Shown here one piece after another: positions 37,869 to 39,689 of a stretch of 64,000 nucleotides of DNA. The notes under the pieces were generated by a model. That model had not been told where the DNA came from and did not search any database. It worked only from the letters and a program-made list of their open reading frames with translations. The stretch is from contig NZ_CP043042.1 of NCBI RefSeq assembly GCF_008122265.1, positions 4,216,001-4,280,000 on the forward strand, read 5' to 3'. The DNA is from Marinobacter fonticola. Its GTDB lineage: Bacteria; Pseudomonadota; Gammaproteobacteria; Pseudomonadales; Oleiphilaceae. The position numbers were made by a program, and so were the translations under genes. Position 1 is the first letter of the stretch. Each line of letters starts with the position of its first letter.

Positions 37869-38023
37869 GTCCGCATCCTCCGGTTTTCGAGGGCCTGTTG
37901 ACGTATCGCCTACATGCCTGCTGAGCCGCGCGAAGACGCCTGACTGGCATCGAGAAGGGCCGCTGGCAGAATTCGGGCGCAGAGCATACCATGACCGGCC
38001 ACCGGACCAATACCTTGGGAACC

Positions 38024-38407
38024 ATGACTGAACTTCTACGCCGACTCACACAGTGGACGCCCGCCTGGCGCCTCGCACTTGTCGCTTCCATGGCACTGAT
38101 CCTCTGGCTATCGACCGCCGAGCTCACCCACCCGGTCGCCACCTCCACCTGGGACAAGGCCAATCATACCCTTGCTTTTATAGAATTGATGCTGCTCGCA
38201 CGCCTGGGCTGGCCCCGTCTTCCGGTCCTGCACAGTGGCCTGCTGATTTTGGCTTTCGGCGCATTGATCGAGCTGATCCAGGCGCCCATTCCCTACCGGT
38301 CGGCGTCGCTGCTGGATCTTGTCGCGGATGCCATCGGCATCGGCCTGGGTTTAATGCTCTGGTGGTTCATACTAAGGCCGCTTCAGGCTATTCGTCAGTC
38401 CGATTGA
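38024..38407 (+). CDS. VanZ-like membrane protein
   Basis: A 127-residue protein with four short transmembrane helices (about 14-32, 45-60, 68-86, 104-122) and the VanZ-like pattern DKANHTLAFIELMLLAR and LIELIQAPIPYRSASLLDLVADAIG. Function unknown; homologues are called teicoplanin-resistance-like only by fold. ATG 38024 has GGGA just upstream; an in-frame ATG at 37991 is possible. Confidence 0.78.
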   Translation: MTELLRRLTQWTPAWRLALVASMALILWLSTAELTHPVATSTWDKANHTLAFIELMLLARLGWPRLPVLHSGLLILAFGALIELIQAPIPYRSASLLDLVADAIGIGLGLMLWWFILRPLQAIRQSD

Positions 38408-38491: not shown

Positions 38492-38509
38492 TGTGAGATA
38501 TTTCCTACA
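38492..38509 (+). promoter_or_regulatory. Candidate GacA/UvrY binding box
   Basis: TGTGAGATATTTCCTACA is an 18-bp imperfect palindrome matching the GacA upstream activating sequence pattern TGTAAG-N6-CTTACA found before rsmY, rsmZ and csrB genes. Its centre is about 178 bases upstream of the predicted start of the regulatory RNA, a spacing close to that known for rsm genes. Confidence 0.75.
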
Positions 38510-38665
38510 AAGGCGTGAGAAATAGCGAATTCGTACTGTGCGAAGCGCCAGCATCAACATTCAACTAATTCGCATATTGCTGATATTTAAGATTATTTAT
38601 TTCCGATCACTTCCTGATCACGTCAAGACGGGTATGCTGTCACACGAAAGTCATCTTCAAGTCGG

Positions 38666-38671
38666 TATAGT
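38666..38671 (+). promoter_or_regulatory. -10 box of the CsrB/RsmZ-type RNA
   Basis: TATAGT lies 7-8 bases before the first GGA hairpin. No good -35 is seen 17-18 bases upstream, as expected for a promoter needing an activator. Confidence 0.6.
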
Positions 38672-38677
38672 GGATCT

Positions 38678-38902
38678 GGTCAGGATGACAGGGACAGGAC
38701 GACACAGGGAGTCGTTCCTCACAGGATGTGAGGGGAAGCAGGGACCAAAAGGATTTAATGCTTAAGGGATACTTATTTTGGATCGCCGGCTCGGAAGCTG
38801 GCGCCACGGAGCTGGCCAGGGATCAGATAGCGACAGGATGTCGAAGAGCACAAGGACGAGATACCTGTTCCGACAAAGGGCAACATCTGTTGCCCTTCTT
38901 TT
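38678..38902 (+). ncRNA. CsrB/RsmZ-family regulatory RNA
   Basis: About 225 nt with no credible protein, packed with some 15 GGA motifs. At least six sit in hairpin loops: GTCA-GGA-TGAC (38679-38689), ACGAC-acaggga-GTCGT (38699-38715), CCTCACA-GGA-TGTGAGG (38717-38733), CCGGCT-CGGA-AGCTGG, GCCA-cggagc-TGGC and CGACA-GGA-TGTCG (38831-38843). It ends in a strong terminator. This is the architecture of Csr/Rsm RNAs, which sequester the translational repressor CsrA/RsmA. A GacA box lies about 180 bases upstream. The ends are predicted. A likely consequence, by analogy with pseudomonads, is de-repression of biofilm genes such as pel. The small open frames across it have no family features. Confidence 0.9.
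38876..38902 (+). terminator. Rho-independent terminator of the CsrB/RsmZ-type RNA
   Basis: Perfect 9-bp stem AAGGGCAAC/GTTGCCCTT with a 4-nt loop (38876-38897), then CTTTT. Confidence 0.9.
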
Positions 38903-38924: not shown

Positions 38925-39599
38925 TTAAGCGCTCGCCAGGTAGATACGCACCCGATTGAATTCCTCGAACTCGTGCAGATCCGGCCATGTTCTTCCTTCG
39001 CGCACCGCTTGCAGCCGGTACCGCGTATCGCCCAGATCCTTCACTCGCGAATCCGCCAGCAAAACTTCAGGCGCCCCCTCAAGGAAATACCCCAGTAACG
39101 GACGATTCTCCGGATCGTAGAGTACATCGGCCGCTGTGATGACATCGAATTTACCCTCTCGGGCGGTCCAATCGCCGCAAACGGTGACGGCCACTCCGTT
39201 GACTTGAGCGTTCGCCGCGATGGCGATCAAGGCGTCCGGGTCGATATCGCAGGCCACCACCTCACGGGCGCCGGCCTTAGCCGCAGCAATAGCAACTACC
39301 CCGGAACCGGAGCCGAAATCGATGACCCGTTTGCCGGCTACCCGTTCCGGATGATCGAGAATAAATTGCGCCAAAACCTGGCCGCTGGCCCAGCAGAACG
39401 CCCAATACGCCGGTTCAGCCACGACCGCTTGTGCTTCGTCATGGGTTAGCGGACCTTCGAGCACCGCTGGATCGAACAGATAGAGCGCTAGCGACGGACA
39501 GCCGGCTGGACGGGATAACGCGACTCGTCCGCGACGGAGGGTCCGGCTCATGCATGCGTTGAGCGTGCTATTGGTAGGGGCATCATCGGCTTGAAGCAT
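38925..39599 (-). CDS. Class I SAM-dependent methyltransferase (Methyltransf_16-like)
   Basis: A 224-residue methyltransferase. Motif I is [19 protein letters not shown] and motif [30 protein letters not shown] upstream is characteristic of the nicotinamide-N-methyltransferase/ETFB-lysine methyltransferase-like group. The target is unknown. The start is uncertain: ATGs at 39647, 39599 and 39551 are in frame. The first follows directly on a TATAAC -10-like box, so I use 39599. Divergent from selU. The regulatory RNA terminator lies just past its stop. Confidence 0.8.
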
Positions 39600-39689
39600 G
39601 CCGCATTCTACCCGGCTGCCAGTGCGGACTGAAGCGGGAGCAGTCATCCGTTATACTGCGACCATTCATTCAGCCCAAACCAGGCCGTT

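Follow-up and report, generated by a model that had tools for sequence, protein, structure and literature searches.

The window analysed here, a 64-kb (64,000-nucleotide) stretch of a Marinobacter genome that consists of one contig of 4.54 Mb, holds an interval crowded with GGA triplets, flanked by a VanZ-like gene and by a methyltransferase gene that converges on it. This raises the question as to what the interval encodes: a regulatory RNA that would titrate CsrA, an RNA with some other partner, one or more small proteins, or nothing that is transcribed. Positions 38678-38902 very probably encode a trans-acting RNA of the CsrB/RsmZ type, predicted to sequester CsrA under UvrY/GacA control, a reading on which conserved GGAs and hairpins, promoter, upstream box, terminator and the presence of CsrA, GacA and BarA genes agree. 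The features that the argument draws on are the following.

37991-38407, plus strand: gene for a VanZ-like protein, upstream neighbour (Pfam VanZ, 39.7 bits)
38492-38509, no strand assigned: UvrY/GacA-type inverted repeat TGTGAGATATTTCCTACA, matching TGTAAGN6CTTACA at 10 of 12 positions
38514-38522, no strand assigned: additional half-site CGTGAGAAA, following the inverted repeat at a distance of 4 nt
38666-38671, plus strand: -10 box TATAGT, the same hexamer standing in 11 of 14 rows of the upstream alignment
38678-38902, plus strand: predicted CsrB/RsmZ-type small RNA of about 225 nt, its start taken from the -10 box and its end from the terminator
38679-38689, plus strand: first GGA hairpin, GUC-AGGAU-GAC
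38717-38733, plus strand: GGA hairpin CCUCAC-AGGAU-GUGAGG, with compensatory changes (both sides changed in four of five counted pairs)
38784-38803, plus strand: GGA hairpin with an 8-bp stem and a CGGA loop (both sides changed in one of six pairs)
38831-38843, plus strand: GGA hairpin CGAC-AGGAU-GUCG
38876-38902, plus strand: intrinsic terminator (38876-38897) and its T tail
38925-39647, minus strand: methyltransferase gene, convergent downstream neighbour (Pfam PrmA/MTS)

Anatomy of the interval and of its upstream region

CsrB/RsmZ-type RNAs carry multiple GGA motifs, many of them in hairpin loops or single strands. The sequence-only reading had claimed for this interval about 15 GGAs, at least six of them in hairpin loops, three bare A-GGA-T tips and a strong terminator, and the counts bear it out: there are exactly 15 GGAs, seven lie in local hairpin loops on stems of at least 3 bp, the bare tips stand at 38683, 38724 and 38836, and the RNA ends in the intrinsic terminator listed above. 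The interval lies in the GGA-densest stretch of the window, both strands considered; 225-nt windows taken throughout, again on both strands, hold 3.5 GGAs on average (sd 1.9, maximum 16), and no other site on either strand reaches 13 GGAs or more per 225 nt. Dinucleotide shuffles of the interval gave a mean of 9.6 GGAs and reached 15 in 13 of 2000 cases. As for the looped motifs, the seven on stems of at least 3 bp compare with a shuffle mean of 2.5 (seven reached in 18 of 2000), the five on stems of at least 4 bp with a mean of 0.9 (five reached in 6 of 2000), and the two on stems of at least 5 bp were reached in 66 of 2000. As a whole the RNA folds just slightly better than shuffled sequences do (z = -2.3), which would not be surprising for an RNA built of many small hairpins.

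The predicted start was placed at 38678 because it fits the TATAGT -10 box; a sigma-70 scan of the locus found no full promoter. The inverted repeat TGTGAGATATTTCCTACA is centred about 177 nt upstream of this start; its distance to the RNA core downstream is 187 nt. In the window as a whole, box-like matches with up to three mismatches are at chance level (11 against 9.9 expected), so the assignment of this UvrY/GacA-type box rests on position and conservation. A repeat of this kind far upstream of the promoter is a mark of the class and, by a sequence criterion only, is found in 74 of the 76 distinct orthologous regions with enough upstream sequence, where the best match to TGTAAGN6CTTACA reaches at least 9 of 12 positions; with one letter shuffle per region as control, 6 of 76 did so. 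Its distance before the core is nearly fixed, at 186-188 nt between the 10th and 90th percentiles and 179-209 nt over the full range, and in the half-site CGTGAGAAA the GT and the following G do not vary among the 14 aligned rows. When a relaxed pattern of the box was run over the whole genome, four places were found (two with the reversed control), and the RNA locus has 13 GGAs per 150 nt downstream of it, against at most 8 at the other three.

This layout is shared with Escherichia coli csrB, which likewise has a UvrY-type repeat about 180 nt upstream and a half-site just downstream; the repeat TGTGAGAGATCTCTTACA is centred at -183/-182 and the half-site TGTAGGAGA lies 5 bp downstream of it (PMC4682653). 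Treated as a positive control, E. coli csrB scored 380 bits with the Rfam CsrB model, held 22 GGAs, showed nine GGA hairpins against 1.1 in shuffled sequence, and had a box that begins 191 nt upstream. E. coli csrB also has an IHF site between its box and its promoter; no such site is claimed for the window RNA, where the best candidate matches 7 of 9 positions only. Among the orthologous regions, perfect IHF-like sites about 105 nt before the core occur in 15 of 76 (0 of 76 when shuffled), several of them near the same place.

Conservation in relatives and the competing readings

The locus was found by DNA search in 22 of 58 genomes. Examination of patterns located the core in 89 of 102 loci, and a covariance model (R1) that covers 109 nt at the 5' end and was built from 29 locus sequences recovered 7 of the other 13; among 80 named loci the RNA is present in 74 and absent from L063, L107 and L110-L113. 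R1 matches the window RNA, a member of its training set, at 100.7 bits, and matches 150 of the 163 whole genomes of the family, covering 14 of 16 genera; training sequences match by construction, and most of the 150 genomes lie outside the 29-sequence set. The remaining 13 family genomes gave no R1 match at E <= 0.001 even in a laxer search (best 0.011). In an order-wide draw of 293 genomes under strict filters, R1 was found in 13, all of the window's family, and in none outside it. A DNA search against E. coli genomes gave no match, nor did R1 match E. coli csrB.

In an alignment of 24 RNAs, with the window sequence as reference, its GGA triplets hold their positions in 77% of the 23 relatives on average, against 39% for other triplets, and none of 20,000 random draws was as high (0.77 against 0.39). 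The sequence-only reading had offered non-conservation of the GGA hairpins in close relatives as grounds for abandoning it, and the comparison came out in favour of the RNA; the poorly kept motifs are those at 38708 (43%) and, in the CGAC-AGGAU-GUCG hairpin, at 38836 (the exact GGA position in only 39%). A GGA at 38672, which precedes the predicted start, is kept in none of the 23. Throughout 77 distinct orthologues, GGAs exceed the first-order expectation and GGA hairpins exceed the shuffle mean (77 of 77 in both cases). This bears on the strongest competitor, namely that the stretch is a conserved non-coding RNA or leader with another partner, whose GGAs are incidental, for example purine-rich or Shine-Dalgarno-like. 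Dinucleotide content alone accounts for 9.6 of the 15 GGAs, and binding of CsrA is a prediction from sequence, which leaves this reading some room; however, no triplet that occurs at least four times is better conserved than GGA, the GGAs sit in loops, and the promoter carries a csrB-like UvrY/GacA-type box, so that we regard it as very improbable. Nor is the stretch a leader, since it is closed by a terminator and the gene beyond runs towards it.

The class is also non-coding, and a small protein, or several, encoded across the stretch is to be given very little credence: four overlapping ORFs of 66 to 106 aa do cross it, but within the RNA between 8 and 15 of the 23 orthologues in the alignment have in-frame stops, depending on the ORF, and frame-changing lengths occur in 14 of 23, as the original statement that no protein is encoded would have it. 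A scripted search turned up a terminator-like hairpin in each of the 89 orthologous loci that were scored.

Structural conservation points the same way as the CsrB/RsmZ-type reading. The 26 pairs of six helices (the predicted structure minus one four-pair helix) are 96% paired in the alignment, six pairs in all show changes on both sides, and the covariation score lies beyond 500 of 500 shuffles and all slid versions. Some shuffles matched the number of pairs changed on both sides (33 of 500) or the number of pair types (277 of 500), and the covariation thus rests mainly on one helix, that of the 38724 hairpin. Since transcription is likewise predicted, an untranscribed GGA-rich stretch kept between two genes for no RNA function might be imagined, but the spread of R1 over the family's genera, the compensatory pair changes and the conserved promoter and terminator make it scarcely credible.

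The Csr/Gac circuit and the known RNA families

The proteins that a CsrB/RsmZ-type RNA would need are all encoded in the genome: one CsrA gene, a UvrY/GacA (55% identity) and a BarA/GacS-type kinase (BarA, 39% identity over residues 3-905 of 918). The UvrY/GacA gene is followed by what we take, from reading their sequences, to be uvrC-like and pgsA-like genes, and a uvrY/uvrC/pgsA-type trio adjoins in E. coli likewise. In the proposed circuit, the sensor kinase BarA/GacS would phosphorylate UvrY/GacA; the phosphorylated regulator would bind the inverted repeat near -177 and turn the RNA on from the TATAGT promoter; the transcript would then offer its GGA motifs, several in hairpin loops, to several CsrA dimers, and CsrA's target mRNAs would be freed.

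The setting of the gene is conserved. Among 22 neighbour loci of about 3 kb each, taken from whole genomes and found by their intergenic DNA, the methyltransferase adjoins the RNA in 19 and VanZ in 14. Farther out lie CysZ and RapA on the VanZ side and SelU and MscS on the methyltransferase side; CysZ, VanZ and the methyltransferase are backed by Pfam, which reports Rhodanese for SelU, and the other names are our own assignments by reading. Comparison at the VanZ-methyltransferase junction, which the sequence-only reading had proposed, favours the RNA, and its remark that no neighbouring proteins would flag the gene has to be given up: both the VanZ/CysZ and the methyltransferase/SelU sides are conserved, and synteny helps in finding it. 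Its assignment to the CsrB/RsmZ type is supported, most of the checks that can be computed being favourable; the Rfam covariance check that it had suggested went the other way, with no CsrB, RsmZ or CsrC model at gathering score.

No Rfam family reached its gathering score in the window or in the 20 orthologous loci searched. The best match of the window RNA is to the Pseudomonas PrrB/RsmZ family (RF00166), over the whole model, yet at 22.1 bits (E 0.0054) it stays below the gathering score of 44, which none of the 20 loci reaches. For CsrB (RF00018, gathering score 71 bits) no match at that level was obtained in the window or the 20 loci, the search reporting the best family of a clan only, so that a weaker CsrB match, if any, would be hidden; one of the long relatives described below (L020) scores 23.9 bits with this model, again below gathering. 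CsrC (RF00084, 61 bits) is not matched at gathering score in the window. With E. coli CsrB, which is under BarA-UvrY control, the window RNA shares its many GGAs, AGGAU hairpin tips and a terminator; it is shorter (about 225 against 369 nt), has fewer GGAs (15 against 22) and lies among different neighbours. As far as sequence can define it, the window RNA is a new family within the known functional class of CsrB/RsmZ, outside those Rfam families as modelled, and by the criteria tested it should work like them. It probably fills a gap in the Csr/Gac circuit of Marinobacter and related bacteria, being a component that the Rfam models overlooked in the window and 20 loci, and the alignment of orthologues provides a basis for building a family model.

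The literature, as covered by titles and abstract openings among the matches listed and with subscription papers thinly represented, held no report of this RNA in Marinobacter; a 2006 prediction paper on CsrA-regulating RNAs may list it. The four Rsm RNAs of Pseudomonas brassicacearum have 6-10 GGAs each (PMC7911923), fewer than the 15 of the window RNA. CsrA-sequestering RNAs backed by RNA-seq have been proposed in other marine gammaproteobacteria, namely Aln1a-c of Alteromonas and CsrB/CsrC of Marinomonas, which differ in lineage and locus (PMC5864184, PMC8523701). The counting interval given there for Marinomonas CsrC, 655 nt, suggests that long members of the class are not unheard of.

Size of the RNA at the orthologous locus and further GGA-rich stretches

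Counted from about 6 nt before the core, 74 of 77 distinct orthologues measure 205-271 nt and hold 12-18 GGAs. At the small end, L173 has 12 GGAs in 199 nt. Larger forms have 20 GGAs in 362 nt (L021), 24-25 in 448-530 nt (L167, L169 and L170), 31 in 521 nt (L109), 36 in 631 nt (L023) and 38 in 626 nt (L020, also L132). L023 contains four R1 matches in tandem, at 65.3 to 79.1 bits, which are copies of the 5' module (L134, 6732-7215). Its source, G011, is a 70%-complete assembly; the four copies are 60-78% identical to each other, and such divergence speaks against an error of assembly. A methyltransferase tree of 28 rows, drawn without L007 and L170 for want of a usable protein, requires three changes for the long form, and two of these are forced by well-supported branches; a single gain with two losses may account for all three. 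Sponge size showed no link with the number of CsrA genes: of the six whole genomes in which a long RNA was measured, G011, G012, G015, G016 and G034 have one CsrA and G029 has two. We see even chances that the capacity of a single CsrA-sponge locus has come to differ about threefold within one family, from 12 GGAs (about 200 nt) to 38 (about 626 nt), with CsrA genes staying at one or two, the RNA having grown on the 3' side of a fixed promoter and 5' module; such growth would probably have happened more than once, in one genome through four tandem 5' modules. If true, this would offer a natural series of doses in which to see how the size of the sponge tunes the Csr switch, and the number of CsrA sites could be set against regulation in a direct test.

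A second, smaller relative is present in the window's genome (L115, G000:C1:3464875-3464980; R1 34.7 bits, E 4.3e-5). This copy, at about L115:1499-1646, is some 148 nt long, with 8 GGAs and a terminator-like end, and scores 25.2 bits with Rfam CsrC, below threshold; no UvrY/GacA box of at least 9 of 12 positions lies within 400 nt of it (best 8 of 12). The same type occurs as two tandem copies in G004 (L174) and has a relative in G016.

Five family genomes with no R1 match carry another GGA-rich stretch (L184, L185, L189, L190 and L191), with 11-12 GGAs per 225 nt and none of the usual neighbours. These stretches follow a TGTAAG-N6-CTTACA box, scored at 12 of 12 in three and recognised by eye in the other two, one of which has a change of the last base; they are probably a different Csr RNA. 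L181 and L194 (G442) are likewise GGA-rich, with 11 and 12 GGAs per 225 nt and GacA-box-like repeats in or near them, and are probably further Csr RNAs.

The other box-like sites of the window's genome were considered as further RNA genes and dropped. The best of them, L203 (G000:C1:4149886-4149903), with 8 GGAs per 150 nt, was rejected because a short repeat and the first part of a helix-turn-helix-like reading frame account for its GGAs. Its box-like repeat, TGTGCGTTATGACGCACA, has a second similar repeat just before it and, lying upstream of that frame, is perhaps the regulator's own operator.
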